This document shows, piece by piece, positions 46,006-63,419 of a DNA stretch of 64,000 bases (position 1 is its first letter; each line of letters opens with the position of its first letter). Below the pieces are notes generated by a model. That model was not told the origin of the DNA and ran no database searches. It worked only from the letters and a program-made list of their open reading frames with translations. This DNA is from Halorubrum trapanicum. Its GTDB lineage: Archaea; Halobacteriota; Halobacteria; Halobacteriales; Haloferacaceae. Position numbers and translations under genes: made by a program. The stretch is taken from assembly GCF_017873555.1 (NCBI RefSeq), contig NZ_JAGGKE010000001.1, positions 372,001 through 436,000 on the forward strand, read 5' to 3'.

Positions 46006-47349
46006 TCAACCCAGCAGGCTCTCGCCGTCGAACTCGGCGTCGACGTCGACGTCCATCAGGTCGAGGACGGTCGGGGTCACGTCGAAGAGGTTCGCGTCGG
46101 TCAGGTCGAGGTCGGGGTCGGTCGCGTACAGCAGCGAGTTCTCGAACTTGTGCATCCCGTTTCGCGGGCCTTCGGTGAAGACGGCCTCCTTGCCCGAGAA
46201 GCCGGACTTGAGGTCGAACCCGTCCGCGGGAATGACGACCAGGTCCGGGGCGATCTCGTCGTGGTCGCCGTCGAAGACGGTCTCGCCTTTCACGATCCGC
46301 TTGCACACCTCTCGGCCGTCCGGCCCGGTGAGCGATTCGAGGTCGTCGATGAGTTCCTCGCGCGTCTCCTCGTACTCCGCTTCGGGAACGACGCCGTTCG
46401 GCTCGCGTCCCTCCAGGTTGAGGTAGAACCGGCCGGGAATGAGCGAGTACGCGCGGGTCTCGTCGTCGATGTCCGTGAGCGAGTCGTGGTCGGCGTCCTC
46501 GTAGGAGAGCCACCCCTCGTCGGCGAGGAACTGGTTGAAGTTCACCTCCCAGTTCAGCTCAGTGAAGCCGTGGTCGGAGGCGACGATCAGCGTGGTGTCG
46601 TCGTCCAGCGAGTCGCGGATCTCGCCGATGTACCCGTCGAGCCGCCGGTAGAACTCGAGGAACTCCTCGGCGTACTCGCCGTCGTTCGCGTAGTCGCCGA
46701 ACAGGAAGTGGTTCACCCGGTCGGTGCTCATGAAGACGCCGAAGAAGAGGTCCCAGTCGTCCTCGGCGAGGTAGTGAGAGAAGGCCTCGTACCGGGCGTC
46801 GAGGGTCGCGTACGCGTTCTCGACGAACTCCGTCTTGTCGTCGTCGTGGCCGAGCTTGGCGTTGACGTCGATGCGGTAGTCGAAGCCGTCGAGCGTCTCG
46901 CGGACCGACTCGTCGCTCGCGGCCGCGTCGAGGTCGGGCGAGAGGAAACCGGAGACCATCCGCTGGACCCGCGTCGACGGCGGGAACGTCACGGGAACGT
47001 TGAGGACGGTCGCGTCGCGGCCGGCGTCGGTGACGCGGTCCCACAGCCGGGTCGCCTTCACGTGGCGCCCGAGCGGGACGTACGTCTCGTAGGAGTCGAC
47101 CTCGCGATCCTGAAAGCCGTACACGCCCGTGGCGCCGGGGTTCACGCCGGTCGTGAGGCTCGGCCAGCACGCGCTCGACTCCGGCGGGACGATGCTCTCC
47201 AGCCGCCCGCCGGAGCCGGTCTCGGCGATGTCGGTCAGGTTCTCGAAGACGTCGGGATGGTCCTCGACGAGATCGAGCGGTACGCCGTCGATTCCGAGGA
47301 AGACGACGCGGCCGTCGTCGTCGCCGCGGAGCCGGTCGAACAGACCCAT
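46006..47349 (-). CDS. Alkaline-phosphatase-superfamily phosphodiesterase
   Basis: The 447-residue protein has the metal Asp in VVFLGIDGVPLDLV, a nucleophile region ESSACWPSLTTGVNPGATG, then MSTDRVNHF and LIVASDHGFTELN for the remaining metal ligands. This is the type I phosphodiesterase/nucleotide-pyrophosphatase group. Substrates range from nucleotides to sugar phosphates and phosphoglycans. The start MGLFDRLRGDD is preferred; an upstream ATG at 47376 is possible. It is divergent from the PAPS-reductase-family gene. Confidence 0.88.
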   Translation of the reverse strand: MGLFDRLRGDDDGRVVFLGIDGVPLDLVEDHPDVFENLTDIAETGSGGRLESIVPPESSACWPSLTTGVNPGATGVYGFQDREVDSYETYVPLGRHVKATRLWDRVTDAGRDATVLNVPVTFPPSTRVQRMVSGFLSPDLDAAASDESVRETLDGFDYRIDVNAKLGHDDDKTEFVENAYATLDARYEAFSHYLAEDDWDLFFGVFMSTDRVNHFLFGDYANDGEYAEEFLEFYRRLDGYIGEIRDSLDDDTTLIVASDHGFTELNWEVNFNQFLADEGWLSYEDADHDSLTDIDDETRAYSLIPGRFYLNLEGREPNGVVPEAEYEETREELIDDLESLTGPDGREVCKRIVKGETVFDGDHDEIAPDLVVIPADGFDLKSGFSGKEAVFTEGPRNGMHKFENSLLYATDPDLDLTDANLFDVTPTVLDLMDVDVDAEFDGESLLG

Positions 47350-47483
47350 GTCCGCTGGTTCCGCGGCGGTCGACATATCCCTTGTGTTCCACGAGACCGC
47401 GGCGGCGACGGCCCACGCGTCGGCGGTCGCCCGCGGCCGAGATTCAGAAGGCATATCTCCCTTCGCGCCGACGGGTTCGGCGT

Positions 47484-48455
47484 ATGAGCGACGACTTCCC
47501 GGCGAGCGTCGACGTCGATTACACGGACGGCGAGGGCGAGAGTCCCGACGACTACCCGTCGATCCAGCACAAAATCGAGAAGGCGGTCGAGGTCACCCGC
47601 CGCGGGCTCGAACAGTACGACAACCCCGCGGTGATGTGGACCGGCGGCAAAGACTCCACGCTGACGCTGTACTTCATCAATCAGGTGGCCGAAGAGTACG
47701 GCTACGAGAAGCCCACCGCCGTGTTCATCGACCACTTCCAGCACTTCGACTCGATCACCGACTTCGTCGAGCACTGGGCCGACGAGTGGGGGATCGACCT
47801 CGTGTACGCCCGCAACGACGACGTCGGCGCGTACGTCGAAGAGCACGGTCTCGAACCGGGTGACGACATCCCCGTCGACGCGCTCTCGGAGCACAACCAG
47901 CACCACATCCGAGAGATCCTGGAGTTCGAAGAGGACGCGTTCCCGTTCCTCTTGGACACCTACGTCGGGAACCACCTGCTGAAGACGGTCGCGCTCAACG
48001 ACGCACTCGAGGAGTACGACATCGACGGCGTCATCTCGGGCGTCCGCTGGGACGAACAGGAGGCCCGCGCCGACGAGACGTTCTTCTCGCCGCGCCACGA
48101 TCCTGATCTGTTCCCGCCCCACGATCGCATCCAGCCCATCCTCCAGTTCGCCGAGACCGACGTGTGGGACGCCTTCTGGAACTTCGTGGTGCCGGACACC
48201 GTCGACGCGTTCCCCGACGAGGGGTACATCCCGCAGGCCGACGACGACCTCCCCGAGGGGGTCACCCAAGCGGACGTACCCATCTCGCCGAAGTACTTCG
48301 CCGGATTCCGCTCGCTCGGCAGCGAGGTCTCGACGGAGAAGACGACCGAAGAGCCCGCGTGGCTCCAGAACCTCGAGGGCACGACCGAGCGCGCCGGCCG
48401 CGCCCAGGACAAAGAAGACCTGATGGAGCGCCTGCGCGACCTCGGCTACATGTAA
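47484..48455 (+). CDS. Phosphoadenosine phosphosulfate reductase family protein
   Basis: The 323-residue protein has the PP-loop MWTGGKDSTLTL (near residue 50), then FIDHFQHFDSI and GVRWDEQEARADE. The family includes PAPS/APS reductases and sulfate adenylyltransferase-like (CysD) enzymes. Typical reductase C-terminal Cys (ECGLH) is absent, so a simple reductase role is doubtful, and CysD-like or N-type ATP pyrophosphatase activity is possible. It ends in a T-run at 48480-48486. It may serve sulfate activation. Confidence 0.85.
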   Translation: MSDDFPASVDVDYTDGEGESPDDYPSIQHKIEKAVEVTRRGLEQYDNPAVMWTGGKDSTLTLYFINQVAEEYGYEKPTAVFIDHFQHFDSITDFVEHWADEWGIDLVYARNDDVGAYVEEHGLEPGDDIPVDALSEHNQHHIREILEFEEDAFPFLLDTYVGNHLLKTVALNDALEEYDIDGVISGVRWDEQEARADETFFSPRHDPDLFPPHDRIQPILQFAETDVWDAFWNFVVPDTVDAFPDEGYIPQADDDLPEGVTQADVPISPKYFAGFRSLGSEVSTEKTTEEPAWLQNLEGTTERAGRAQDKEDLMERLRDLGYM

Positions 48456-49260: not shown

Positions 49261-50178
49261 CTACTCGTCGCGGTACGGCTCACACACGAGTTCGACGCCC
49301 TCCTCGAAGCCGATCTCCGGCTCCCAGCCGGTCGCCTCGTGGAACGTCGAGTAGTCGGCCATCGTGTCGTGGACGTAGCCGTCGAAGGGGCACTCGATGT
49401 AGACGGGGTCGATGTCGGTGCCGAGCGCGTCGTTGATCATCGCGACCATCTCGTTGAACGAGTACGCCTCCTGGGTGCCGACGTTGTACACGCCCGTCAG
49501 TTCGTGGTCGGCCGCCAGCTCGCAGGCGCGGGCCACGTCCGAGACGTGCGTGAAGTCGCGGGTCTGGCTGCCGTCGCCGAACAGCTCGGGCGCCTCGCCG
49601 TTCGCGATGGCGTCCGCGAACTGCGCGACCGTGTTCGCGTACTCGCCTTTGTGTTCCTCGTTGCCGCCGAACCCCTGGTACACCGAGAAGAACCGGAGGC
49701 CGGCCATGTTCATCTCGTGGTGGTTCGCGTAGTACTCGGCGTAGCGCTCGCGAGCGAGCTTCGAGGCCTCGTAGGCGGTGCGCGCCTCGACGTCCATGTC
49801 GACCGGGGAGGGTTCGGTGCGGCTCCCGTAGATCGAGGAAGTGGAGGCGTAGACGACGGTGTCACAGCCCGCTTCGCGGGCGCGCTCGACGGTGTTGACG
49901 AACCCCTCGACGTTGACCCGGCAGCCGCGCTGGGGGTCGGACTCGTGCATGTTCCGCGAGGAGAGCGCGGCGAGGTGGAAGACGACGTCGACGTCGACGG
50001 GGAACTCGCCGTCGACGACCGAGGCCTCGACGAACTCCACGTCGGAATCGAGGTTCTCGGACGTCCCGAGATAGGTGTCGTCGACCGCGATCACGTCGTT
50101 GTCGGCCGCGAGGCGGTTCGCGAGGTTCGAGCCGATGAAGCCGGCGCCGCCCGTGACGAGGACGCGTTTGTCCTGCAT
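49261..50178 (-). CDS. NAD-dependent sugar epimerase/dehydratase (extended SDR)
   Basis: The 305-residue protein has the Rossmann loop TGGAGFIGSN (Gly10-Gly16), a Ser/Thr stretch YASTSSIYG and the catalytic YEASK (Tyr and Lys). This is the NDP-sugar epimerase/dehydratase family, for example UDP-glucose 4-epimerase. It probably supplies an activated sugar for the glycan locus. A TATA-like GATAATCC (minus strand, near 50203-50209) lies 25-31 bases before the ATG, right beside the decayed insertion sequence. Confidence 0.9.
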   Translation of the reverse strand: MQDKRVLVTGGAGFIGSNLANRLAADNDVIAVDDTYLGTSENLDSDVEFVEASVVDGEFPVDVDVVFHLAALSSRNMHESDPQRGCRVNVEGFVNTVERAREAGCDTVVYASTSSIYGSRTEPSPVDMDVEARTAYEASKLARERYAEYYANHHEMNMAGLRFFSVYQGFGGNEEHKGEYANTVAQFADAIANGEAPELFGDGSQTRDFTHVSDVARACELAADHELTGVYNVGTQEAYSFNEMVAMINDALGTDIDPVYIECPFDGYVHDTMADYSTFHEATGWEPEIGFEEGVELVCEPYRDE

Positions 50179-50209: not shown

Positions 50210-50972
50210 GTGTCGGTCCGGCGTCGACAGAGAGTGGAGATGAAATGTTAACTTGTGGATACTCTTGTAAATGGTACTTAGATAAGCTGATCCCATGCCA
50301 AGACAAACGATTGTAACCGGTTTTCGGCGGTATCGGTTCGACGTGGCAAAACGTATTTGAGAAGTGGTTTATTCATTGCTTTACTTCATGAAGGACACGT
50401 TCGACAGCATTTCGAGTCCCATATGTGACGTGTTGGAATCGGAACCCGTGGCGATGACAGGCCGCGTGTAACCATGGCGCACCCTCGACGGGAAAGACCG
50501 GGTTGTCAATCTGGTGTTTTTCACGCAGTTCTGAGAGAAACATCGATATGATCGCGTTTGTTCTCTCGGATAGAGCCGTACGTGGACAAGCGGTTCGTGT
50601 CGGGATCGACGGCAGCGTACAGCCAATATCGCTCAGGTTTGGGATCTATCACGACTTCATCGACCGCGACGAGACTCGAGTTGGGACCGTCTGTCGGCTG
50701 TAAATCGGCTTTTTGTACCCCTCGGTGGACTGTAGTTCAACGGGGATCGGCATCCAAGTTTTCAATTATCGAAACGGTATTCGAAAATGATATTCCAGCC
50801 AAATGGAGTCGGATACCGAGTTTTATCGCCGGTTCGGGCGTCACCTCTCGCTCCAGAAAATCTAACTCGATACAGCCGCTACCGCCGTTGAGACGGTCGA
50901 AACTGAGCATAGACCGTTCGATCCTCTGACCACCTCATTCCCGGCCTTATCTCAACACTACCCCACCGACAC
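50210..50972. mobile_element. Possible extent of the IS6-type element
   Basis: GTGTCGGT at 50210-50217 is repeated inverted (ACCGACAC) at 50965-50972 and brackets the transposase pseudogene, giving an element of about 763 bp, near the size of haloarchaeal IS6-type elements. The match is only 8 bp, so these ends are tentative. A target duplication was not identified. Confidence 0.35.
50278..50910 (-). pseudogene. Decayed IS6-family (ISH14-like) transposase
   Basis: Reading the minus strand and joining frames restores a full-length transposase: MLSFDRLNGGSG..., TPEPAIKLGIRLHLAG, TTVHRGVQKADLQPTDG, VAVDEVVIDPKPERYWLYAAVD, then after frameshifts VHVRLYPREQT, MFLSELREKH, GAPWLHAACHRHGF, GTRNAVERVLHEV, SNTFCHVEP and NRLQSFVLAWDQLI. 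A TGA at 50737-50739 and several frameshifts, plus an early stop at 50373-50375, break it. The second catalytic Asp is replaced by Glu (PVEGAPWL). It lies between the epimerase and the flippase genes. Confidence 0.85.
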
Positions 50973-50979: not shown

Positions 50980-52443
50980 TCACGCGATACGCTCTTTGAT
51001 CCGCCTGAGGGCGGGGAGGAGAACATTGCCGAGCGTTAGTCGAAAGTGCGGACTAAGAACGGCTAATGTACCGAAGTAGACGGCAGCGCCGAAACCGATA
51101 AGTCCGACGACCGGGAGCCACCACGACAGCGCAATCAAGGGCCTGACGGCGATGATAGTGATGTACATCAGTACTGCGCTCCCGAACTGTGCCCACAGCG
51201 GCCAAGGGAGGATGATACCGCCCAACTCTCTTTTGCTTAAGTATTGGTAGGAAAATAATACTACTACTTCGACAAAAAGGGTCGCCGCAATAATCCCCAG
51301 CAGGCCGTCCCAGTAGTAACCGAGCACACCGGCGAGCGGAAGGTGGATGATGAGTGCCGCTGTCCGGAGTCGGAAGACGAACTGCGGCCGGTCAGAGCTT
51401 TCGAGCGCCGTCGCGAACGGGTCCTGATAGATGTAGAAGATGAAGAAGCCGGCCACACCAACGAGTGCGGCTCCCCCAGCGCCGAAGCTTGACCCGAAAA
51501 AGGTCCGCATTAGTGCCGCTGGCATCGCCAGCGCACCGAAGAACATCGGGAGGACAAGCAGCCCCGAGTATGCGACGGTGTTCACTACATCCTCCCTGAT
51601 TTCTTGGCCGAGCGAGGTGAGTCCACTCACTTTCACTCCGAGCGCGTTTGAGATGCTCCCCGAGAGCTGTTGGGCCGGCGTGACGATCCGGAGCGCCGTC
51701 TCGTAGAATCCCACTGCCGCGTCCCCCGCGAAGAAGCCGATGAGGATCACGTCGACACGCTTGTAGAAGTCCTCGACGACAGCGGTCGGCACAGAGTAGC
51801 GCGCAAAGACGAAGAGGTCCTCGCTAGTGTCACCGAATCCCTTGAGTCTGGGTCGGACGCCGGCGGCAGCAAACACTCCGAGCGCGGTGATGAGCGTTCC
51901 GCCAGCGAGGCCAGCAAGCAGGCCGAACGCTTCGTAGCCCGCGAACAACAGCGGAAGCTGGAATCCGAGTGTGAGTACGCTCCGGACGGTGTCGGCCCAC
52001 AGCGAGCGGCTCGGGTATCCCAGCCCGGCGTAAAAGCGATTGAGTATCTGGAAGAGTCCGACCGTGGCGAGCACGGCTACGACGGCCGTGACGACGAGCG
52101 GCGTCATTGGCAAGAACGAGGTGTAGTACGCGACGGCAAACGTGGCAGTCGCGACGACGACGACCCACGCGAGGTGGAACGCTATCCCCACTGCCAGATA
52201 CGGACGGGGGTCCGCACCCGCCTCGCTGACGCGCTTCTTCAGGGCAACCCCGACACCCGCGTCGACGCGGACAAGGAGGAGCGCTATCGCGAGCGCGAAG
52301 TAGTACCGCCCCGTCCCCGCGGGGCCGAGGACGCGAGCGAATAACACCACCCCGACGAACCCCAGTCCGGACATCGTAAATTTCGCTGCGACCGAGGAGA
52401 GGGCTTCGCTACCCAGATCGAGGTCAGCGGTGTTCTCCGCCAT
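50980..52443 (-). CDS. Polysaccharide/lipid-linked glycan flippase (Wzx-like)
   Basis: The 487-residue protein has about fourteen membrane segments and begins with SSVAAKFTMSGLGFVGVVLFARVLGPAGTGRYYFALA, the MOP/Wzx family entry pattern (motif ARVLGPAGTGRYY). It probably moves a lipid-linked glycan across the membrane for AglB or another ligase. The gene is less GC-rich than housekeeping genes of this window, common in glycan loci. It starts three bases after the upstream hydrolase stop, so it is co-transcribed. Confidence 0.88.
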   Translation of the reverse strand: MAENTADLDLGSEALSSVAAKFTMSGLGFVGVVLFARVLGPAGTGRYYFALAIALLLVRVDAGVGVALKKRVSEAGADPRPYLAVGIAFHLAWVVVVATATFAVAYYTSFLPMTPLVVTAVVAVLATVGLFQILNRFYAGLGYPSRSLWADTVRSVLTLGFQLPLLFAGYEAFGLLAGLAGGTLITALGVFAAAGVRPRLKGFGDTSEDLFVFARYSVPTAVVEDFYKRVDVILIGFFAGDAAVGFYETALRIVTPAQQLSGSISNALGVKVSGLTSLGQEIREDVVNTVAYSGLLVLPMFFGALAMPAALMRTFFGSSFGAGGAALVGVAGFFIFYIYQDPFATALESSDRPQFVFRLRTAALIIHLPLAGVLGYYWDGLLGIIAATLFVEVVVLFSYQYLSKRELGGIILPWPLWAQFGSAVLMYITIIAVRPLIALSWWLPVVGLIGFGAAVYFGTLAVLSPHFRLTLGNVLLPALRRIKERIA

Positions 52444-52446: not shown

Positions 52447-53583
52447 TTACTTGTAGCCCAGTGCTTCGAGGTCGTCTTCAGGGAGTTGGTCCTTCGAGAC
52501 GGGCTCTGCTGCGGTGGCGGCCCACTCCTCCAACGCGAGTTCGAGGTCACGGTCCGTCGCTGTTTCGCCGTCGAGGGTGCGAATGCCCTCTGCGTTGGCA
52601 AAGTGCTGAGCGTTCATCGCGGCATGGCTGCCGTTCGACGCAGCAAACGCGGTACCTCGCGAGAGATCCCCGTCACCGTGTTCAGCGCCCAGAAATACAG
52701 AGGGAATATCCACGAGGCTCCGGACCTCGCTGTCGGCAAGGTCGACAGAAAGGTTCCGCCCGGTGGCTGGCACGCGCAGTATCTCGGGGCACATCGTCGC
52801 GTGGTGGCCCCACTCACCGTACTCACCGAGCAACTCGCCGTGGTCCGCGCAGAACAACACTCTTGTCTCGTCGGGCACCGCTTCCCAGAGGCGCGCGAGG
52901 CGGTCATCCAGTTCCTGAACCTCGCCCCGGTAGAGTTCACGTCCGAGTTCGACGTCGTCCTCGCTCCCGCGGCCGTCGAGCAGGCGGCGGGTGACCTTCT
53001 GGGCCTCCGTCCGCGAGACCGGGGCGTCGTCTGGGTTGTACGGGTGGTGAGGCTCCATAAAGTGGAGCCAGCCGAACCAGTCGCCGTCGGGCGCCTCCGT
53101 CGCGACGTCCTCCAACAGGTCGTCGATGACCTCGGCCGCGGGTCGGTAGTCGCGAGAGGCGTCTCCAACCGTGCCCCGCAGGCTCTGGTATGCGTTGTAC
53201 GCCCGCGAGGCGATTCCGTAGACGGTGCTCTGAGGCGTCATGTTCGCCGCAACCCGGTCCTTCAGCGAGGATCCGTCGCGCTCGGGTTCGACGAAGCGGT
53301 CGAAACCCGCGTCGTAGCCGTAGCGTTCGGAGAGGAAGCGGTTCGTCGAAACGCCAATTTTGTAGCCGGCGTCGACCTTCGGCACGAAGCTCTCCTCGGG
53401 CGTCACGCCTGCCTCGTCCGGATAGACCCCACCGATGATCGACTGGAAACAGGATGGTGTCGCCGTGTTCGTCGCGAACGTCGCTGGGTGGGCCTCGCCG
53501 AGGAACGCCCGCGTCTCAGGCATGTACTGGTAGTGGTCGTAGCGTAGGGAGTCCACGGTGACGAGAAGGGCGGGCGGGCTCAT
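52447..53583 (-). CDS. Sulfatase-like alkaline-phosphatase-superfamily enzyme
   Basis: The 378-residue protein has the metal Asp in LLVTVDSLRYDHY, a nucleophile region NTATPSCFQSIIGG, GWLHFMEPHHPY and VLFCADHGELLGEYG with the late metal ligands. The Cys-x-Pro-x-Arg sequence needed for formylglycine of classic sulfatases is not present, so a phospho- or phosphoglycerol-transfer role is as likely as sulfate removal. It ends LEALGYK, like its three paralogues upstream. The start MSPPALLV at 53583 is taken; nine codons more are open. Confidence 0.85.
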   Translation of the reverse strand: MSPPALLVTVDSLRYDHYQYMPETRAFLGEAHPATFATNTATPSCFQSIIGGVYPDEAGVTPEESFVPKVDAGYKIGVSTNRFLSERYGYDAGFDRFVEPERDGSSLKDRVAANMTPQSTVYGIASRAYNAYQSLRGTVGDASRDYRPAAEVIDDLLEDVATEAPDGDWFGWLHFMEPHHPYNPDDAPVSRTEAQKVTRRLLDGRGSEDDVELGRELYRGEVQELDDRLARLWEAVPDETRVLFCADHGELLGEYGEWGHHATMCPEILRVPATGRNLSVDLADSEVRSLVDIPSVFLGAEHGDGDLSRGTAFAASNGSHAAMNAQHFANAEGIRTLDGETATDRDLELALEEWAATAAEPVSKDQLPEDDLEALGYK

Positions 53584-53626
53584 CGTCCGTCCTTCGCTCC
53601 CGTTGGGCATAAATCTCGTGCGGCGC

Positions 53627-54583
53627 TCATCTGTACCCCAGCGCGGTCAAGCGGTCTTCTAGCGTCGACTGTTCAAGTTCGACCTCCACGGGTTCGATCT
53701 TGGGTTCCAGAGTCCACTCATCGGTGGCGCTCGTCTCCACCCACGGCACTTCCCGGAGGGCGGACGCCGGGACGTGACGATAGTGGCCGTAAAGGCCCCA
53801 CTCGCCGAAGGCCTCGCCGTGGTCGCTGGAGATGATAACTGTTCCGGAGTCGAGGTTCTTCAGGAGGGGCGCAACCCCGTCCTCAAGCACCCAGCGGAGG
53901 TTGTCTCGGTAGGCGGCCCACGCCTCTTCTTGGTCTATCTCACCCATCTGGAGGAGGTCCCAAACCGATTTTTCAGCCTCGCCGCGCTCGTCTGCCTCCG
54001 CGCGGTCGCCCACGTCGAGCGATCGGTAAGGAACGTGAGGTTGCATGTAGTGGACGATCAGGCGGTCGAAGTTTCCCTCCCGGCCGACCGAGACGGCCCG
54101 ATCGGTGACAGTTTCGGGCGGGACGACACCGAGGTCGTCGTCCCAGCCGTAACGCCACACCTCGTCAAGTAGGCCGAACGCTTCGGGGTCGGGTTCGAAG
54201 GCGTCGCCGAACTCTTGTGAGAAGTTGTTCGCGCAGACGTAGGCGGTGTCAGCTATTGTTTCCGGATCCGCGCCCGCGAACGTCCGGTCAAGGAACTCCC
54301 ATGACGTGGAACCGACCGAAGTGAAAGAGGGGATGTCACCGGGGAGGAAGTCGTACTCGTTACTCACTTCGGCCATCACGTCGGGACGGCAGGTGTCGAG
54401 GAGCAGGAGGACATCCCACTCCTCCTCGTAGACGTTCGTACCCCGCTGATCGAACCCAAAGGTGTGAGAGGAGTGACGCAGGGCGCCGCCCCAAAAATCA
54501 AGAGCAGCTGAACGCCCGCCCTTACGCAATCCGTACTGGTCGAGTTTGAACCGGGACTCCTCAACCCAGTCGACAAACGTCAT
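53627..54583 (-). CDS. Sulfatase-like protein, tandem paralogue 1
   Basis: The 318-residue protein has WDVLLLLDTCRPDVMAEV (metal Asp), a candidate nucleophile SVGSTSWEF, LIVHYMQPHVPYRS and IISSDHGEAFGEWGLYGH. It is closely related to the next two upstream genes and overlaps the second by four bases. No signal peptide is visible, so it probably works in the cytoplasm or at the inner membrane face. The tail DRLTALGYR is a family signature. The substrate, presumably a glycan or lipid phosphate/sulfate, is unknown. Confidence 0.82.
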   Translation of the reverse strand: MTFVDWVEESRFKLDQYGLRKGGRSAALDFWGGALRHSSHTFGFDQRGTNVYEEEWDVLLLLDTCRPDVMAEVSNEYDFLPGDIPSFTSVGSTSWEFLDRTFAGADPETIADTAYVCANNFSQEFGDAFEPDPEAFGLLDEVWRYGWDDDLGVVPPETVTDRAVSVGREGNFDRLIVHYMQPHVPYRSLDVGDRAEADERGEAEKSVWDLLQMGEIDQEEAWAAYRDNLRWVLEDGVAPLLKNLDSGTVIISSDHGEAFGEWGLYGHYRHVPASALREVPWVETSATDEWTLEPKIEPVEVELEQSTLEDRLTALGYR

Positions 54584-55617
54584 ACGTACCCGAGGGCTTC
54601 GAGGCGGTTCTGGCGCTCCGAATCGGACACCTCGGACTCGGTAGGTCCGGTCTCTACCACGAGTTCGCCCGAGTCTGTCGCGCTCGTCTCCACCCACGGA
54701 ACCTCCTTCAGCGTCCGAATTGGAACGTAGGGTGGGTGGGCGTATGTGCCCCACTCCCGGCCGGTCGGGCCGTTGCCGGTCCACTTCTGTAGCCCCCAGC
54801 GACCGAACACCTCGCCGTGGTCGCTGGTGAGGACGACCGTATCGGCGTCGACGTTGTTCAAGAGTGGTTCGACACCGTCTTCCATCACCCAGCGGAGGTT
54901 GTCACGGTAGGCGTCCCACACTTCCTCAACCGAAACTTCACCCGCGCGGAGTTCCTCCCACATCTCGCGCGCCGGGTGGGTCGCGCCCTGGTTGCCGATA
55001 CCGGGTTTCTCGTCCCAGCCGTAGCGGTCGATCATCGAGCGATAGGGGGCGTGGGGCTGCATATAGTGAACGACCAGCTGCTCGGGATCGTATTCGCGCG
55101 CGGCGGCGACGGCGCGCTCGGTGACCACGTCGGGTGGCGTCGTGTAGTCGTCGTCGTTCCAGCCGTACTTGTGGACCTCGTCCAGGTGGAGGAGGGCGTC
55201 CTCGTCGATATGCTCAGCGAACAGGTTGGACGTGACGTACGCTGTATCCGCCAGCTTCTCGGTGTAGTTCCCGTTGACGCTCCGGTCTATCGTCGGTTCG
55301 GGGTAGTCTCCGTTGGTGAAGTTCTTCTTCACCCACTCAACGGAGGCCGACCCGAGGGAGATGTGGGTCGGCACGTCTCGGGGGACGTAGTCGTACTCCC
55401 CGGCCATTTCCGCGAGCAGATCTGGACGACAAGTGTCGAGGACGACCAGCACGTCCCACTCGCGCTCAAACACCGACGTGCCGTAGTTGTAGCCGTTCCG
55501 TCCGACCCGGTCGAGGACGCCCGTAAGGAGTGCCTCAGCGGAGCCCCGCCCGCCGGTGAGGGCCCCGTACTCCGCCACGCGCTCCCGGGATTCGTCCATC
55601 CAGTCCTGAAGCGTCAT
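54580..55617 (-). CDS. Sulfatase-like protein, tandem paralogue 2
   Basis: The 345-residue protein has WDVLVVLDTCRPDLLAEM, the candidate nucleophile region SLGSASVEW, QLVVHYMQPHAPYRSM and VVLTSDHGEVFGRWG. Relative to its paralogues it has an insertion of about 15 residues after FGRWG (QKWTGNGPTGREWGTYAH) and ends RLEALGYV. A TATA-like box at 55677-55685 suggests that it is the first gene of a transcription unit that continues through paralogue 1, the sulfatase-like gene and the flippase. Confidence 0.82.
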   Translation of the reverse strand: MTLQDWMDESRERVAEYGALTGGRGSAEALLTGVLDRVGRNGYNYGTSVFEREWDVLVVLDTCRPDLLAEMAGEYDYVPRDVPTHISLGSASVEWVKKNFTNGDYPEPTIDRSVNGNYTEKLADTAYVTSNLFAEHIDEDALLHLDEVHKYGWNDDDYTTPPDVVTERAVAAAREYDPEQLVVHYMQPHAPYRSMIDRYGWDEKPGIGNQGATHPAREMWEELRAGEVSVEEVWDAYRDNLRWVMEDGVEPLLNNVDADTVVLTSDHGEVFGRWGLQKWTGNGPTGREWGTYAHPPYVPIRTLKEVPWVETSATDSGELVVETGPTESEVSDSERQNRLEALGYV

Positions 55618-55676
55618 ATTGAGCTGTCATCGCGCCGTGCGGCACGACGTGTTATCGGGAGAGTTGGCCCCGCTCC

Positions 55677-55685
55677 TTTTAATAC
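55677..55685 (-). promoter_or_regulatory. TATA-like box for the sulfatase-like/flippase operon
   Basis: On the minus strand GTATTAAAA lies about 60 bases before the ATG at 55617, giving a leader of roughly 35 bases. It is the only AT-rich stretch of the 147-base gap. Confidence 0.55.
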
Positions 55686-55764
55686 TTCCCTATTGGTAGC
55701 GCCCCGTGACCCGGAGACGGCCGTCACAGGGACTCTCAATGAGGTTCAAGGGCATCGAGGGGAG

Positions 55765-56730
55765 TCAGCGGTAGCCCAGCGCTGCGAGGCGGTCCTCAAC
55801 CTCCCGGTCGCTCAGCCGGGTGGCCTCGGGCTCTATCTCCGGATCGAGTTCGCCCGAGTCGCTCGCCTCCGTCGTCGCCCACGGCACCCGCTTGAGCGGC
55901 GGGATGGGCGCAGGCGTGCTGTGACCGTAGTACCACCAGTCGCCGAACCCCTCGCCGTGGTCGCTAGTCACGGCTACTGTGCCGTCGATGTTCTCCAAAA
56001 GCGGCGCGACACCGCTGTTGAGAACCCAGCGCAGTGTGTCCCGGTAAGCCCTCCACGTCTCATCGACGGTGAGGCGGCCCGTCCTCAGGCGCTCCCACAT
56101 ATTCATCTCCGGGCGGTCATCCGGGTTATCCATTCCCACGGTGAGGGAGTACCACTCGGGGTGTTCCTGAACGAAGGTCCTGTAGGGGGCGTGAGGCTGC
56201 ATGTAGTGGACGATCAGTCGCTCGGCGTCGTGTTTGCGGCCGATGGCGACGGCGCGGTCGGTGAGGTTCTCCGGCGGGACGTTCCCCCAGTTCACATCCC
56301 ACGCGTACTTCCAGACCTCGTCTATCAGGTAGAGCGCGTCGGGGTCGGGTATGTCTCTGGTGTGCGGATTCGCGCTCACATAGGCCGTCTTCTCCAGTTC
56401 CTCGCCGTGCTCGTCGGGGTCGAAGGTCTTGCGTATCCACTCCGGCGAGCGCGACCCGACGGAGTTGATCCGGTCTCGCTCCGGGTTGTACCCCGAGAGG
56501 AAGTCGTACTCCTCGCTGACTTCGGCCAGCAGGTCGGGGCGACAGGTGTCCAACACGACCAATACGTCCCACTCTTTCTCCCAGACAGGAGTGCCGTAGT
56601 TGTATATGTGTTCGCCGATTTTGCCCAGCCCACCTTCGTACAACTCTTGGACGGCGCCGTAAACGCCCGTCGCCGCGCCGTCGCGCCCGAAGCGTTTGAC
56701 GCTGTTCTCGACCCACTCGCCGAGCGTCAT
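55765..56730 (-). CDS. Sulfatase-like protein, tandem paralogue 3
   Basis: The 321-residue protein has WDVLVVLDTCRPDLLAEV, SVGSRSPEW, LIVHYMQPHAPYRTF and VAVTSDHGEGFGDWWYYGH, ending RLAALGYR. It overlaps the upstream glycosyltransferase by four bases and so belongs to the GT2-GT4 transcription unit, whereas paralogues 1 and 2 follow a separate promoter. Three related genes in one strand order indicate tandem duplication followed by divergence. Confidence 0.82.
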   Translation of the reverse strand: MTLGEWVENSVKRFGRDGAATGVYGAVQELYEGGLGKIGEHIYNYGTPVWEKEWDVLVVLDTCRPDLLAEVSEEYDFLSGYNPERDRINSVGSRSPEWIRKTFDPDEHGEELEKTAYVSANPHTRDIPDPDALYLIDEVWKYAWDVNWGNVPPENLTDRAVAIGRKHDAERLIVHYMQPHAPYRTFVQEHPEWYSLTVGMDNPDDRPEMNMWERLRTGRLTVDETWRAYRDTLRWVLNSGVAPLLENIDGTVAVTSDHGEGFGDWWYYGHSTPAPIPPLKRVPWATTEASDSGELDPEIEPEATRLSDREVEDRLAALGYR

Positions 56731-57992
56731 TCCGCGTCACCCCCCTCGAACGGGTCCGGTGGCTGGGTTTCACCGCCCCGCGTGTCTCCCGAACCGGAGT
56801 CGGACTCCCCGGATACGTCCGTCTCGAGCACCGTCACGCAGGACTCAGACTGCGCTCGTGCGACGGCCTCGCGCATCCCCTCGCGGAACGCCGCTGTACT
56901 GTAGCGCTCGGCGAAGGTCTGGATCTGCGCGGAGGACCATGCGACGCCCTCCTGTTCGAAGCGCGCTATCGACTCGCGAATACTCGCTGGGTTGGGGCCG
57001 TGGGTGTAGCCGTTCTCACCGTCCCGAACTTGGTACTTTGTGTACCCCTCCGCGACCCCGAGGACCGGGGTACCACTCGCGAAGGCCTCAACGGGTATCA
57101 TCCCGAAGTCCTCGTTCATCGCGTTGAACAACAGAGCCTTCGCCTCACCGAGGCGACGTTTCTTCTCGGTCTCGTCCATGTAACCAACGAATGTGACGTT
57201 CTCGGGCGCGCGCGATTCAAGGGCGCCGCGCTCCCTGCCCGCACCGCCAACAACGAGTTCGGTGTCTAATTCGTCGAAAGCGTCGACGATGGCGCCGATT
57301 CTCTTCTCCGGGATGAGCCGGGAGTACGTCAGGTAGTAGTCCGCTCGCTCGCGGGGTTCGTACTCCCCAACAGGGACCGGTGGGTAGACGACACTCACCT
57401 TTTCGCTGGGGACGCCCCAGTAGCGCTGGACCCGCCGCGCGACGAGTTCGCTATTGGCGACGAAGCGGTCTGGGTAGTTCGTGTTCGGCAGGAACAGCGT
57501 CCGAGCGAGGAAGGCATAGAGACGGGTTATCGGACTCCCAGCACGCTGCTGGAACAGGTCGTATGGCGTGCGCGGCGTGCTGTGGATATAGTGTACGAGC
57601 GTTTGTTCATCTTCGGGGACATACCATGACAGTTCGTTCTTCGAGAGGACGAGCGTGTCGTACTCGGTTAGCTCGGGGAGTCGCTGCGCAGCCCACGCGT
57701 AGTAGAGGTCTCGTGTGAGGATGTTCCGTTTCAGGAAGGAGACGGGCGAGTCATTGAATAGGCTTGTCGTCTCCACGTCGGTGGGCAGATAATCAGGATC
57801 ACCGAAACCATAGTAGAGTGGCGCATCAAAGAGCCGTGCGAGTTCGTCTGAGACCCGTTCGGCACCACCGCGTTCGAGGTAGTTGCCGTGTGCGACGGCG
57901 ACGCTCCCGAAAGTCTCAGCGTCAACTGACTTTAGGTCCGTATCAGCGGTCTCGTCCACGTCGTCGTCATCTCCCGCTTCTTTCATACTCAT
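56727..57992 (-). CDS. Glycosyltransferase, GT4 family
   Basis: The 421-residue protein has a GT-B fold: an N-terminal half with AVAHGNYLERGGAERV, then YYLTYSRLIPEKRIGAIVDAF opening the nucleotide-sugar domain and the E-x7-E motif NEDFGMIPVEAFASGTPVLG. It would transfer a hexose from an NDP-sugar onto the growing lipid-linked glycan in the cytoplasm. The last 40 residues are a low-complexity acidic tail. It overlaps both neighbours by four bases. Confidence 0.92.
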   Translation of the reverse strand: MSMKEAGDDDDVDETADTDLKSVDAETFGSVAVAHGNYLERGGAERVSDELARLFDAPLYYGFGDPDYLPTDVETTSLFNDSPVSFLKRNILTRDLYYAWAAQRLPELTEYDTLVLSKNELSWYVPEDEQTLVHYIHSTPRTPYDLFQQRAGSPITRLYAFLARTLFLPNTNYPDRFVANSELVARRVQRYWGVPSEKVSVVYPPVPVGEYEPRERADYYLTYSRLIPEKRIGAIVDAFDELDTELVVGGAGRERGALESRAPENVTFVGYMDETEKKRRLGEAKALLFNAMNEDFGMIPVEAFASGTPVLGVAEGYTKYQVRDGENGYTHGPNPASIRESIARFEQEGVAWSSAQIQTFAERYSTAAFREGMREAVARAQSESCVTVLETDVSGESDSGSGDTRGGETQPPDPFEGGDAE

Positions 57993-59131
57993 TCGTAGAT
58001 CTCCCTGAGTTCCGCGTCCACTTCCCATGTTCCGTCTCCTTTCCCACGGAGCAGATCGATTCCCCCCCGGAGAAGCGATACCTGTGTGTCGAATAGCGAG
58101 TACAACGCTTGGACGGGACCGAGCAGATCCTTCTGTCCGAGGTACGTGAACAGTCCCACTCCCACCGGTAGGGCAAGCCCGACGGCCCCGAACTGTAGAA
58201 TTACCCCGGCTGTCCCAACGATCAGCGTCAGCGCCAGCAGCCACGGCGAGGCGATCATGAACCACCAGTTGAACGGCAACACCGCTCGCCCGTATTTGCC
58301 GTACCGGCCGAGTGCGTCGCGATGCTGAACCAACAGTCGGATCAACCCCATCGCGCGCCGGTCCTTCTGCTTGCGTCGCTTCACGAACTCCGAGTGGCTG
58401 GCCTCCTTGTACCGTACCGCGGGATCGAAGATCACGCGCCCGCCCTGTCGACGGATCTTCAGGGCGAGTTCGGTGTCGTCGGCGAGCGAGTTCGGGTCAA
58501 TCGGGAGCAGCGCGTCGTTCTCGAACGCCGAAAACGGCCCGTGGAAGATCAGCGTCGAGTCGAGATGTGACTCCAGCTGTTGGATGTGCGACTGAACGCC
58601 CCGGTATCCCGACTCCACGCCGCTGCCGCCGAGGACTTCGACGTTGCGCCCCGTGACGGCGTCCACTTCGGGGTCAGCGAGGTTCGCGGCCGCCTCCCGA
58701 AGGACGTCCGGGGGGAGCTTCGAGTCGCAGTCGGTCTTCACGACCATCTCGCGCCCGGCCGCCTCGTACGCCTCGTTTAGCGCGGGCGCGAGCCCGCGAC
58801 GCTCGTCTTCCTCGATCAGCGTGAGGTCCGGAACCTCCAAGTCTGAGAAGTAGTCGCGGATGATCTCGCGCGTTTCGTCCGTCGACGAGTCGACGACGAC
58901 GAGTTCGACCTCCTCCATCGGATAGTCCAAGGCCAGCAGGTCGTCGAGTTTCGCTTCGACGATCCGGGACTCGTTGTACGTCGGGAGGACGATACTAACC
59001 GGGGGTTCGGCCTCGGACTTGGCTGCCGGTGACCCGGACGGACGCAACCACGCGTACAGCCCGAGAAACGCGATGTACGGGGCCGCCGTCACCGCGAGCA
59101 GCACGCCGGCGACGGCCGCGAATGGACTCAT
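57989..59131 (-). CDS. Membrane glycosyltransferase, GT2 family
   Basis: The 380-residue protein has an N-terminal membrane helix, a GT-A domain (PPVSIVLPTYNESRIVEAKL, DSSTDETREII, the DxD-type VKTDCDSKLP and ADDTELALKIRRQGGRV), and two or three C-terminal membrane helices. It fits processive or lipid-acceptor transferases such as dolichol-phosphate sugar synthases. It is first in its operon; a TATA box at 59155-59161 makes the transcript leaderless. It is divergent from aglB. Confidence 0.92.
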   Translation of the reverse strand: MSPFAAVAGVLLAVTAAPYIAFLGLYAWLRPSGSPAAKSEAEPPVSIVLPTYNESRIVEAKLDDLLALDYPMEEVELVVVDSSTDETREIIRDYFSDLEVPDLTLIEEDERRGLAPALNEAYEAAGREMVVKTDCDSKLPPDVLREAAANLADPEVDAVTGRNVEVLGGSGVESGYRGVQSHIQQLESHLDSTLIFHGPFSAFENDALLPIDPNSLADDTELALKIRRQGGRVIFDPAVRYKEASHSEFVKRRKQKDRRAMGLIRLLVQHRDALGRYGKYGRAVLPFNWWFMIASPWLLALTLIVGTAGVILQFGAVGLALPVGVGLFTYLGQKDLLGPVQALYSLFDTQVSLLRGGIDLLRGKGDGTWEVDAELREIYE

Positions 59132-59154
59132 GCGTCGCGCTTGACGCCTGGAGG

Positions 59155-59161
59155 ATAAAAA
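59155..59161 (-). promoter_or_regulatory. TATA box of the GT2-GT4 operon
   Basis: On the minus strand TTTTTAT lies 24-30 bases before the ATG at 59131, consistent with leaderless transcription. Confidence 0.65.
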
Positions 59162-59211
59162 CCCACGCGGATAGTGACGGACCCGCGGTCGACGGCTCGG
59201 AATCGTCCGCG

Positions 59212-59218
59212 TATATAA
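59212..59218 (+). promoter_or_regulatory. TATA box of aglB
   Basis: TATATAA lies 37-43 bases before the aglB ATG at 59255, implying a leader of about 10-15 bases. Together with the box at 59155 it makes a short divergent promoter. Confidence 0.65.
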
Positions 59219-59254
59219 CAAGTCTTAAGCGCGTTTTCACAGTGGCATTTTGTA

Positions 59255-62200
59255 ATGAGCCAGCAACAGGACTCGTCCGAGGGTTCGGGTTCGTCCCCGC
59301 TCGACCTTCTCGAACGCTGGTTCCACGTCCCAGTGCTCGTCGGCGTGTTCGCCGTCATGCTGTGGACGCGGATCCGGTCGTACGGCAACTTCGTCCGCGA
59401 CGGCGAAGTGTACTTCCGCGGCAACGACGCGTGGTACCACCTCAGAGAAACGACCTACCTCATGGAGAACTGGCCGAACACGCTTCCATTCGACCCGTGG
59501 ACGGGGTTCCCGTACGGGAACAGTGCGGGGCAGTTCGGCACCCTTTGGGACCACATCATGGCGGTCGGTATCTGGATCGCCAGCCCGATCATGGGCAGTG
59601 CCGAGGAGGTCATGCTCGTCATGTCCCCCATCGTCGGCGCGCTCGTCGCGGTACCGACGTACTTCATCGCGCGTCGGTTCACCGAGCGCGTTCCCGCGCT
59701 CGCCGGCGCGGCGACCCTCGCGCTGTTTTCGGGTACTTTCTTCCGGTACTCGCTCGTCGGCTTCCCCGACCACAGCGCGGCCGAAGTCTTCTTCCAGAGC
59801 ACCGCCGTCCTCGCGTTCCTCGTCGCCTTCGGCGTCGCGGAGCGCGAGAAGCCGGTGTGGGAACTCGTGGTGGATCAGGACTGGGAGGCCCTGAAACGCC
59901 CCGTCACGTACGCGGTCGCGGCCGGCGTCGCGCTCGGACTCTACCTCTGGACGTGGCAGCCCGGCGTCCTGATGGTCGGGTTCACGGGGATCTTCCTCGC
60001 GATCAAGCTCACGAGCGACGCCTACCACGGGAAGAGTCCGGAACCGGTCGCGTTCGCCGGCGCGGTCGCGATGACGGTCACGGGTCTGATGCAAGTCGTC
60101 CCGCTGAACCAGTTCGGATTCGACACCACCGGCTACTCCCTGCTCCAGATCGTTCTCCCCCTCGGCGTCGCAGTCGGCACCGTCTTCCTCGCGTGGCTCG
60201 CCCGCCAGTGGGAGGCACGCAACCTCGGCAACGACACCTATCCCGCGGCTGTCGGCGGTCTCATCCTCGCATCCGCGGGCTTCGTCTGGCTCGCGATCCC
60301 GTCACTGTGGTCGACGCTCGTCGGGAATCTCCTCAACACCGTCGGCTTCTCGGCTACGGCGAATACCCGCACCATCGGCGAAGCCCAACCCCCGCTCCAA
60401 GACGCCTCCTTTGCCGACTTCGTCCTCTCGCAGTACGGGCTCGCCTTCTTCCTCGCGCTGGCGGCGATCCTCTACGTCCTCGCTCGCCCGCTCTACCGGT
60501 CGGACGACACGAACCACACCCTCTACATCCCGGCCGCGCTCGCCGTCGTCGGCTCCGTCTACGTGGTCCCGCAGGCGTACGGCGCGATCGGCGGTCTCGT
60601 CGGCGTGAGCTGGCAGGTGATCGGTCTCCTCGTCGCCGCGGCGTTCCTCGTCGGCGCGACGTTCCTCGTCGAGTACGACACCCAAGAGCTGTACTTCGTC
60701 GTGTGGGCGGCGTTCATCGGAAGCGCGGCGTTCACGCAGGTCCGATTCAACTACTATCTCGCCGTCATCGTCGCGGTCGGCACGGCGTACTTCCTCCAAG
60801 TGGCGCTCGACGCTCTCGATCTCACCTCACTCGACGCGCTCCGCGATATCGAGGGGTGGCAGGTGCTGACGGTGGTCGCGGTGCTCGCCGTCCTCATCGT
60901 TCCCCTCGTCGGCGTCGCCACGCCGGTCTGGCAGGCGGGCAACTCCAGCGATCCCGGCAGCGTCGTCCAGTGGGACGAGAGCCTCCAGTGGATGAACGAC
61001 GAGACCCCGCAGCCGGGCGAGCTCGAGGGCGCGGACAACCCGATGGAGTTATACGGCACCTACGAGCGCCCGGCCGACGGCGACTTCGAGTACCCGGAGG
61101 GCGCCTACGGCGTCCAGTCGTGGTGGGACTACGGCCACTGGATCACCACGCGCGCCGAGCGCATCCCGAACGCCAACCCGTTCCAGCAGAACGCCGGCGA
61201 GGCCGCCGACTACCTCCTCGCGCCGAGCGAGGAAGAAGCCGCGGAGGTCCTCGCGAGCCAGAGCACCGAGGGCAACGACACCCGCTACGTGATGGTCGAC
61301 TGGCAGATGGCGTCGCCGAACTCCAAGTTCAACGCCCCGGTCACCTTCTACAGCGGTAACGAGACGGTCAACGACTTCAACGAGCTGCTCTACCAGCAGG
61401 TCGAGGGGCAGGACGGCCAGCAGGGCGGGCTCCAGGCCGCGCTTCAAATACGGACGCAGCGCTACCACGAGAGCCAGATGATCCGGCTGTACCAGCACTA
61501 CGGGAGCGCGGTCGAGCCGGAGCCGGTCGTGCTCGACTGGGAGCCGCGGACGGCCCAGACCCAGTCCGGCGAGCAGGTCGACATCAAGGTCCTCCCGAGC
61601 GAGGGCGAGCCGATCCAGCGGTTCGACAATCTCTCTGCCGCGCAGTCGTACGTCGAGGAGGACGGCTCGGCACAGGTCGGCGGCGTCATGGGCGTTCCCT
61701 CGGAGCGGCTCGACGCCCTCGAACACTACCGGCTGGTCCACGCCACGCAGTCCCCGGGACAGTCGCCGTACGCGCAGCAGGCGCAGATCCTCGCCCAGCA
61801 GTTCGGGATCGACCTCCAGTCGACGTTCGGCGAGTCGCTGTTGGGCGCGTTCAGCGACGACTTCGTCAAGACGTTCGAGCGGGTTCCGGGCGCGACGGTC
61901 GAGGGGTCGGGCGCCGAACCCGGCCAGGAGGTCGAGGCGACCGTCGAGATGGAGAAGCCGAACGGGCAGACGTTCGAGTACACGCAGTACGCGACCGCCG
62001 ACGACGACGGAAGCTTTGAGCTCACGCTCCCGTACTCGACGACGGGCTACGACGAGTTCGGTCCCGAGAACGGGTACACGAACACGAGCGTCCGCGCGAC
62101 CGGGCCGTACAACGTCACCACCGAGCAGACGACCGGCGACGACCTCTACACCACCCAGCGCGTCGGACAGGTCGAGGTCACCGAGGGCCAGGTCGTCGGC

Positions 62201-62392
62201 GCCGACGACTCGGCCGCGACGGTCGAGCTCGAAGAGCAGATCATCGACTGCCCGAGCGGCGACGCGGAGTGTCCGGTCGACGACGGCAGCGGGAGCGACG
62301 GCGGGAACTCGACGAACTCGACCGACGCGGGGTCGCTGATCGGAGTCGAGCCGGCCGCAACGACCGCGACGACCGCGACCGCACCGAACTGA
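59255..62392 (+). CDS. aglB: Oligosaccharyltransferase AglB
   Basis: The 1045-residue enzyme moves glycans from dolichol phosphate to Asn in N-x-S/T sites on the outer face of the membrane. It has a first helix and an external loop with the metal-binding RGNDAWYHLRE, about thirteen membrane segments up to residue 560, and a soluble C-terminal domain with the catalytic WWDYGHW (residues 623-629) and later segments typical of haloarchaeal AglB. The last 60 residues are acidic and Thr/Ser-rich. It adjoins glycosyltransferases and a DUF368 gene, as in other archaeal N-glycosylation loci. Confidence 0.97.
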   Translation: MSQQQDSSEGSGSSPLDLLERWFHVPVLVGVFAVMLWTRIRSYGNFVRDGEVYFRGNDAWYHLRETTYLMENWPNTLPFDPWTGFPYGNSAGQFGTLWDHIMAVGIWIASPIMGSAEEVMLVMSPIVGALVAVPTYFIARRFTERVPALAGAATLALFSGTFFRYSLVGFPDHSAAEVFFQSTAVLAFLVAFGVAEREKPVWELVVDQDWEALKRPVTYAVAAGVALGLYLWTWQPGVLMVGFTGIFLAIKLTSDAYHGKSPEPVAFAGAVAMTVTGLMQVVPLNQFGFDTTGYSLLQIVLPLGVAVGTVFLAWLARQWEARNLGNDTYPAAVGGLILASAGFVWLAIPSLWSTLVGNLLNTVGFSATANTRTIGEAQPPLQDASFADFVLSQYGLAFFLALAAILYVLARPLYRSDDTNHTLYIPAALAVVGSVYVVPQAYGAIGGLVGVSWQVIGLLVAAAFLVGATFLVEYDTQELYFVVWAAFIGSAAFTQVRFNYYLAVIVAVGTAYFLQVALDALDLTSLDALRDIEGWQVLTVVAVLAVLIVPLVGVATPVWQAGNSSDPGSVVQWDESLQWMNDETPQPGELEGADNPMELYGTYERPADGDFEYPEGAYGVQSWWDYGHWITTRAERIPNANPFQQNAGEAADYLLAPSEEEAAEVLASQSTEGNDTRYVMVDWQMASPNSKFNAPVTFYSGNETVNDFNELLYQQVEGQDGQQGGLQAALQIRTQRYHESQMIRLYQHYGSAVEPEPVVLDWEPRTAQTQSGEQVDIKVLPSEGEPIQRFDNLSAAQSYVEEDGSAQVGGVMGVPSERLDALEHYRLVHATQSPGQSPYAQQAQILAQQFGIDLQSTFGESLLGAFSDDFVKTFERVPGATVEGSGAEPGQEVEATVEMEKPNGQTFEYTQYATADDDGSFELTLPYSTTGYDEFGPENGYTNTSVRATGPYNVTTEQTTGDDLYTTQRVGQVEVTEGQVVGADDSAATVELEEQIIDCPSGDAECPVDDGSGSDGGNSTNSTDAGSLIGVEPAATTATTATAPN

Positions 62393-62474: not shown

Positions 62475-63419
62475 ATGGTCGAGTTTCGCGAATGGGCGAC
62501 GCTGTATCTGAAAGGCGTGGCGATGGGGAGCGCCGACGCCGTGCCGGGCGTCTCCGGCGGGACGATCGCGCTCATCGTCGGGATCTACGAGCGGCTCGTG
62601 GCCGCGATCACGGCCGCGACTCCCTCGCGACTCCGGCGGATACTCGCGGGCGTGCGCCCGGCGAGCCGCGCCGACGCGCGGACCGCGTTCCGCGAGCTCG
62701 ACGCCGGCTTCCTCCTCGCGCTCGGCGCGGGGATCGGCACCGCGGTCGTCGCGGTGTTGAGCGGCGTCGACTACCTGCTCGCGACCCGCCCGGTCGCGAC
62801 CTACGGGTTCTTCTTCGGGCTGATCGCCGCGAGCGCGGCCGTGCTCTTCGCCGACGTCGACCTCTCGACGCCGCGACGGAAGGCGGCCGCGTTCGGCGGA
62901 TTCGCGGCCGCGTTCCTCGCGTCCGGGTACGCCTCCGCCGCGGTCGAAAGCTCCCTGCCCGTCGTCGCCGTCGCCGGCGCGGTCGCGGTCAGCGCGATGA
63001 TACTCCCCGGTATCTCCGGCTCGCTACTGCTGATCGTCCTCGGTCAGTACGACTACATGGCGGGGACGGTGGGCCGGTTCGTCGACGGCGTCGTCGCGCT
63101 CGCGCTGGGTCGGGGGACCGACGGGATCGTCGAGACCGCGCCGGTCGTCGCCGCGTTCTGCGCGGGCGGCATCGTCGGACTGGTCACCATCGCGCACGCG
63201 GTCCGGTACGCGCTCTCCCGCGCCCGCGAGGCGACGCTGGCGTTCCTCGTGAGCCTGGTCGTCGGCGCGCTCCGGGCGCCGCTCATCGAGACGGGAGACA
63301 CCTTGTTCGAGAGCGGCGAGTCGTGGCGGGCGGCCGCGCCGCGGTTCGCGCTGGCGGCGCTCGCCGGCGCCGGCGTCGTGCTCCTGTTGAACCGCTACTC
63401 CGCGGCGATCGAGTACTAA
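62475..63419 (+). CDS. DUF368 membrane protein, candidate polyprenyl-phosphate transporter
   Basis: The 314-residue protein has about eight to nine membrane segments and the DUF368 start KGVAMGSADAVPGVSGGTIALIVGIYERL (motif GSADAVPGVSGGTIA), repeated in a mirrored motif MILPGISGSLLLIVLGQY. Bacterial DUF368 proteins (PopT) have been reported to return undecaprenyl phosphate to the inner leaflet after glycan transfer. Being 82 bases after aglB, it may recycle dolichol phosphate released by AglB; this is an inference for archaea. Confidence 0.88.
   Translation: MVEFREWATLYLKGVAMGSADAVPGVSGGTIALIVGIYERLVAAITAATPSRLRRILAGVRPASRADARTAFRELDAGFLLALGAGIGTAVVAVLSGVDYLLATRPVATYGFFFGLIAASAAVLFADVDLSTPRRKAAAFGGFAAAFLASGYASAAVESSLPVVAVAGAVAVSAMILPGISGSLLLIVLGQYDYMAGTVGRFVDGVVALALGRGTDGIVETAPVVAAFCAGGIVGLVTIAHAVRYALSRAREATLAFLVSLVVGALRAPLIETGDTLFESGESWRAAAPRFALAALAGAGVVLLLNRYSAAIEY

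Follow-up and report, generated by a model that had tools for sequence, protein, structure and literature searches.

What role do four enzymes of the sulfatase/phosphatase superfamily play inside a haloarchaeal glycan locus? The question is raised by a 64,000-nucleotide stretch of the Halorubrum trapanicum genome (contig NZ_JAGGKE010000001.1, positions 372,001 to 436,000; hereafter the window), in which four open reading frames (ORFs), p1–p4, occupy positions 52447–56730 on the minus strand, with the trio p2–p4 spanning 53627–56730. A first-pass annotation had described three close relatives and a distant fourth, duplicated in tandem within a glycan locus, and had proposed that they add or remove phospho- or sulfo-groups on a surface glycan, a step it believed to be undescribed. 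The four ORFs are confirmed, the models have the alkaline-phosphatase (AP) fold, and glycosyltransferase genes, a flippase gene, and aglB flank p1–p4, as it had said. Our preferred reading, to which we assign a probability of roughly two in three, is that p2–p4 are AP-fold sulfotransferases of the Agl30 family and that p1–p4 sulfate a lipid-linked glycan before its transfer by AglB.

The relationships among the four proteins are as first described. Pairwise identity among p2, p3, and p4 is 44–47%, and all three contain LDTCRPD, VHYMQPHxPYR, and SDHGE. p1 aligns with them over only 104–120 residues at ~28–34% identity, and the profile–profile probability linking it to the p2–p4 group is 99.7%. 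In Pfam, p1 matches PF00884 (E 2.7e-12), whereas p2–p4 score 15.7–19.5 bits against this model, under the cut-off of 25; the other matches are PF01663 for p1 and a weak PglZ match for p3. No PAPS-binding sulfotransferase domain (PAPS, 3′-phosphoadenosine 5′-phosphosulfate; Sulfotransfer_1/3) was matched in p1–p4, and sequence and AP-fold models together reject a PAPS-fold sulfotransferase identity for them. The C-x-P-x-R formylglycine signature, already reported missing, is absent from all four, as is its C/S-x-P-x-R form. At the aligned site, p1 has Thr42-Pro-Ser-Cys-Phe and p2–p4 have S-x-G-S-x-S-x-E-W/F.

Conservation was counted, in p4 numbering, over family ORFs scoring above 60 bits (179, of which 152 are distinct, among 232 matches). 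D61 and R64 are invariant (150/150 relatives), position 95 is always Ser or Thr (135 Ser and 15 Thr among 150), H175 is present in 150/150 and H180 in 149/150, and D257, H258, and H270 each occur in 148/148. All of the family-fixed residues (D61, S/T95, H175, H180, D257, H258, and H270) are carried by p2, p3, and p4 alike, and the metal ligands are intact in the p1–p4 sequences. The DTCRPD motif that the first-pass annotation had singled out is present, but it is a local form of the family motif D[A/T/G]CRxD, in which position 62 is Ala in 108 and Thr in 20 of 150 relatives; in the AP fold, a metal-binding Asp sits within this motif. Within SxGSxSxE, likewise correctly noted, Ser occupies the GS position in just 127/150 relatives, as compared to 150/150 with Ser or Thr at the third serine, and the GS serine was rejected as the nucleophile. 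From these alignments, the third Ser (S95 in p4) is the best candidate for that role.

AlphaFold models were built from window and related-locus sequences (104 for p4 and 28 for p1); alignment A3 has 104 rows, comprising three window sequences and 101 of 105 references, with four near-copies left out. The mean predicted local distance difference test score is 93.7 for p4 and 87.2 for p1, and both models adopt the AP-superfamily fold. Ser95 of p4 and Thr42 of p1 each mark the beginning of a helix. The two residues pair in the profile–profile alignment, and Thr42 in turn lies opposite the cysteine of sulfatase 4upl. Because Ser or Thr occupies the position of the formylglycine Cys, p1–p4 are not formylglycine sulfatases; neither group can form formylglycine at Ser95 or Thr42. 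Missing catalytic residues had been named as the outcome that would speak against the original proposal; the sequences contain every one of these residues, and in each of the two models a helix begins at the candidate nucleophile. The fold is shared with the type I formylglycine sulfatases BT1596 and FA22070, from which the window enzymes differ by having no C/S-x-P-x-R and by Ser/Thr in place of formylglycine. The BT1596 match is strongest for p1 (Z 29.1). BT1596 is reported to act on uronic acid 2-O sulfate, and the same two sulfatases (6hhm and BT1596) are named as structural matches of Halobacterium proteins in PMC11980604.

That paper (PMC11980604, 2025) reports that two AP-superfamily proteins of the Halobacterium salinarum AglB cluster sulfate its N-glycan, on the evidence of gene deletion, mass spectrometry, and expression in another host. 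Deletion of VNG1056C (Agl30) is described as lowering the di-sulfated N-glycan peptide 250-fold and deletion of VNG1057C (Agl31) more than 50-fold, and expression of either gene in Haloferax volcanii as leading to sulfation of the host glycan; deletion of VNG1063H is reported to leave N-glycan sulfation unchanged. p1–p4 are additional members of an enzyme kind first shown in 2025, and the step held to be undescribed had by then been described. The part of that proposal concerning a role in adding sulfo- (or phospho-) groups to a surface glycan is supported. Elsewhere, Haloferax volcanii Agl7 is reported to have a part in sulfating a lipid-linked hexose (PMC3871713, PMC5867893), and Halobacterium sulfation to follow assembly of the whole lipid-linked tetrasaccharide (PMC13308652). 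No further reports of AP-superfamily sulfotransferases in archaea were found in the open-access literature.

H. salinarum itself is not among the genomes found (the best match to its S-layer peptide is 83%), and family membership of its proteins was tested through the primer table of PMC11980604. Translated, the VNG1056C primers give DFGHLDM, ITDRTV, and HLEDLGYL; a Natrialba asiatica ORF (L076:10944-11918), a family member located in an aglB locus, is identical at 18 of the 21 residues, in the same order. This ORF and a near-copy in L083 score 107 of 114 on the fragments, as compared to 80 for the next family member and 71 for the best non-family ORF among 2368 distinct ORFs of at least 250 residues. 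The forward primer has a single site at up to five mismatches in the 1.88 Mb of loci; it has three mismatches, with 0.009 sites expected at three or fewer. The VNG1063H primers encode VHYFQPH and KIDEDV; VHY[MF]QPH occurs in 134 ORFs, all 134 of them family members, in loci partly chosen with VHYMQPH. Judged by these primer-coded fragments, VNG1056C (Agl30) and VNG1063H belong to the p2–p4 family, which holds at least one shown sulfotransferase (Agl30) and one member without a known target (VNG1063H). Identity to the Agl30 orthologue found through these fragments is 38% for p2, 33% for p3, and 38% for p4 over 299–345 residues, spanning the entire catalytic domain (E 1e-46 to 1e-64). The same approach did not place VNG1057C: its best two-fragment score of 41 is equaled by unrelated ORFs, giving no convincing match.

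Agl30 and p2–p4 thus have in common a sequence family by primer fragments, an AglB cluster, and the AP fold. PMC11980604 gives Agl30 no InterPro protein-family assignment, much as p2–p4 fall below the Pfam cut-off. In contrast to Agl30, described there as membrane-associated with a predicted transmembrane segment at residues 21–39, the window proteins have none by hydropathy, and they form a set of three tandem paralogues in another branch. Agl31 is described as sulfatase-like and soluble; its gene lies beside that of Agl30, as p1 lies beside p2, and its C-terminus carries an LxxLGY tail (primer-coded LEELGYT) like that of the window enzymes.

The proposed sulfation builds on the family membership, fold, residues, and context seen in the window and on the activity of Agl30 and Agl31 in H. 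salinarum. The window paralogues would retain sulfation, and we infer their acceptor sugars and the covalent intermediate. p2–p4 most likely act on the cytoplasmic face, on a dolichyl-phosphate-linked glycan, where each would sulfate a particular hydroxyl of a sugar. p1, a second class of the same fold, probably carries out the same reaction at a different position, much as Agl31 works alongside Agl30. A metal-bound Ser/Thr (S95 in p4, Thr42 in p1) would accept the sulfo group of a donor and hand it to the sugar hydroxyl. Transfer would be favored over hydrolysis because, without formylglycine, a sulfated Ser/Thr intermediate is not readily hydrolyzed; such slow hydrolysis of sulfated Ser is established for Cys-to-Ser sulfatase mutants. 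The sulfated glycan would then be moved by the flippase and transferred to protein by AglB.

Several points weigh against this reading. Membership of Agl30 was judged from primer-coded fragments, with frames picked for fit, and the window proteins are paralogues in another tree branch rather than Agl30 orthologues. VNG1063H, a member of the same family, can be deleted with sulfation reported unchanged. EptA, a phosphoethanolamine transferase, ranks first for p4 among solved enzymes, tied with sulfatases. AglB lies near the family in only 22 of 80 loci of at most ~21 kb, these being the best 80 of 214 stretches confirmed in a GTDB search. In the genome of the window, standard ATP sulfurylase, CysDN, and canonical sulfotransferases are not recognizable by profile searches.

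The ranking of EptA (4kav; Z 14.2, 3.2 Å over 201 residues by VIA-align, ~17% identity), which is also the best Foldseek match for p4, suggests a different chemistry. As EptA/LtaS-like transferases, p1–p4 would place phosphoethanolamine, glycerol phosphate, or another phosphodiester onto the glycan from a lipid or nucleotide donor. EptA/MCR enzymes share with p4 the fold and a hydroxyl nucleophile at a helix start, and their metal-site layout resembles that of the window enzymes. Certain relatives on plasmids carry the annotation "LTA synthase family protein", and the deletion of VNG1063H would be consistent with a reaction other than sulfation. However, sulfatases 6hhm (Z 13.7) and BT1596 (5g2u; Z 13.3) lie within 1 Z unit of EptA. 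EptA/MCR and LtaS act outside the membrane, and the former have a transmembrane domain, whereas no EptA/LtaS-like N-terminal transmembrane domain was found in p2–p4 when hydropathy was scanned in simple form over the first 70 residues (highest 19-residue mean 0.61–0.77). Agl30, the sole family member with a shown reaction, is reported to add sulfate. Phospho-group transfer, though the best placed of the alternatives, is unlikely.

If p1–p4 are instead sulfotransferases, as we prefer, a sulfate donor must be found. Sulfate activation was surveyed in 73 genomes, 60 of the same taxonomic family (the window's own included) and 13 of Halobacterium, with 14 controls. ATP sulfurylase (PF01747) was found in 0/73 genomes (controls, 5/14), CysD above cut-off in 0/73 (controls, 4/14), and CysN above cut-off in 0/34 among the genomes listed (controls, 4/14). 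Matches to CysN below the cut-off read as elongation factor 1-alpha, with its usual length of ~422 residues and an EF-2-like neighbor; about a dozen genomes carry a second CysN-matching gene. Adenosine 5′-phosphosulfate (APS) kinase passes the loose Pfam cut-off in 58/60 same-family and 13/13 Halobacterium genomes but exceeds 150 bits in only 4/60 (G034, G036, G042, and G058) and 0/13, respectively. The remaining matches, at 20–30 bits and mostly to part of the profile, are read as other P-loop kinases, among which a divergent APS kinase is possible. The PF13469 sulfotransferase occurs in 2/60 same-family genomes (G034 and G058), each time beside a full APS kinase. These full-length kinases (L155 and L157 in G034, L158 in G058) lie in frames of 326 and 302 residues, about twice the domain length, and the pair represents a rare canonical sulfation pair in haloarchaea. 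At the level of profile searches, the PAPS route is not recognizable in most genomes surveyed, though nearly all of them carry the Agl30 family. The main text of PMC11980604 contains none of the terms PAPS, phosphoadenosine, and "sulfate donor". The missing activation is either a real puzzle or the work of divergent enzymes missed by profile models. Where sulfate comes from when the standard activation enzymes are not recognizable is the most valuable remaining point.

One candidate source is a CysD-like PF01507 protein present in 72/73 genomes. In the window, its gene lies at 47382-48455 (+) (PRK05253, 6.3e-21); its one match among solved structures is CysD 1zun_A (E 4.5e-9), and failure to match the PDB and structure libraries cannot prove a relative missing. 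The adjoining window ORF at 46006-47454 (-) is a PF01663 phosphodiesterase/nucleotide pyrophosphatase (1.5e-46) without an LGY tail. The CysD-like protein ends in the same LxxLGY tail as the enzymes discussed above. An L..LGY motif no more than three residues from the C-terminus is carried by 241 of 4216 distinct ORFs (loci and window), nearly all of them AP-superfamily-like, the CysD-like protein being the clear exception; 32/32 haloarchaeal CysD-like ORFs (fetched stretches, overlaps included) end in LRDLGYM. In the AP-superfamily enzymes, the tail includes a helix end in the model. In a non-PAPS system, the CysD-like protein, alone or with a partner, would activate sulfate, giving APS, a mixed anhydride, or a sulfated lipid as donor for what may be Ser/Thr ping-pong sulfo transfer on the AP fold; LxxLGY could then be a common docking tail through which the activated sulfate is handed on. 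We regard this system as improbable. A neighborhood link between the family and the CysD-like protein was rejected, with a relative of the 47382-48455 gene in 0/80 loci. Bacterial CysD likewise ends in GY, and the common tail may be old and unrelated, or may reflect similar packing or chance.

The family is close to universal in haloarchaea. A profile of three sequences matches 59/60 same-family genomes, the window's own included and the exception being an 80% complete genome, as well as 13/13 Halobacterium genomes. The family extends to plasmids, of which 47 records match; among the matches listed, the host is haloarchaeal for all 40, and most relatives are annotated as hypothetical. In GTDB genomes, the protein most nearly identical to p4 (74%) belongs to Halolamina pelagica and likewise has a p1 neighbor; the p4 counterpart of this species is split over two ORFs (L015:10010-10914), by a broken gene or a sequencing error. 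In a FastTree-only tree (145 rows after length filtering and merging of window copies, with several long branches), p2 and p4 each cluster with Halorussus, Haloferax, and Halobonum counterparts with starred support, and p3 with a Halolamina counterpart. Because the grouping across genera is copy by copy, the tandem copies are old and have been kept apart. In 8/8 of the closest loci (L009-L016, several genera), a p1 orthologue comes after a run of two to four family genes, one of which is in two pieces in L015, and aglB is close by. This conserved multi-copy block suggests several distinct acceptor positions.

The window's own genome holds further family members at L099:8594-9538 (-) and 10924-11808 (+) and at L098:8498-9364 (-). 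These copies, on C12 and at C1:235 kb, are far from aglB; the C12 pair is near larger AP-fold genes, and the C1 copy is without an LGY tail. These distant copies and the minority of loci with aglB would be consistent with sulfotransferases for another surface polymer, such as an exopolysaccharide or glycolipid, that merely share the locus with aglB. Retention of the p1–p4 block with aglB in all eight closest loci argues against this, and we consider it improbable. Hydrolytic roles inside the cell, with sulfatases or phosphatases trimming or recycling sugar esters, might be suggested by the PF00884 match of p1 and the sulfatase-like fold. They are very improbable given the absence of C/S-x-P-x-R from all four proteins, the biosynthetic neighbors in an order conserved with aglB, and known relatives reported to be transferases.

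The quartet lies among genes of glycan assembly (see the table), with two glycosyltransferase genes, p4 to p1, and the flippase gene following one another on the same strand. There is a 4-base overlap between the GT4 ORF end and the p4 start, and another between the p3 end and the p2 start when p2 begins at 54583. This ATG is preferred because it shares bases with the p3 stop and matches the p3 and p4 starts in the alignment; the GTG at 54784 in the ORF list is too early. An upstream ATG for p1 would give 387 residues. The p4–p3 gap (55618-55764) contains a TATTAAAA box, possibly an internal promoter. Between the flippase and epimerase genes, at ~50320-50930 (-), lies a lower-GC stretch with a broken transposase-like remnant, presumably IS6-type.

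Features of the glycan locus in the window
Feature	Position	Strand	Length (aa)	Description
p4	55765..56730	-	321	D[A/T]CRxD-family (Agl30-family) AP-superfamily enzyme; key residues D61, S95, H175, H180, D257, H258, H270
p3	54580..55617	-	345	Tandem paralogue; candidate nucleophile S92
p2	53627..54583	-	318	Tandem paralogue; candidate nucleophile S94
p1	52447..53583	-	378	Distant PF00884-type enzyme; Thr42 at sulfatase formylglycine Cys position
Glycosyltransferase	56727..58265	-		GT4-type
Glycosyltransferase	57989..59221	-		GT2-type
Flippase	50980..52443	-		Polysacc_synt-type
AglB oligosaccharyltransferase	59255..62392	+		Divergently oriented to p1-p4; TIGR04154 E 5e-276
Polyprenyl-phosphate transporter-like protein	62475..63419	+		PF04018
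Nucleotide-sugar epimerase/dehydratase	49261..50178	-		NAD-dependent

The assignment would link a large, near-universal haloarchaeal family, whose members are annotated as hypothetical or sulfatase/LTA-synthase-like, with a reaction demonstrated in a single species. It would also give the family a defined catalytic residue for mutation. The capacity for glycan sulfation would be widespread in these organisms and expanded by tandem duplication.

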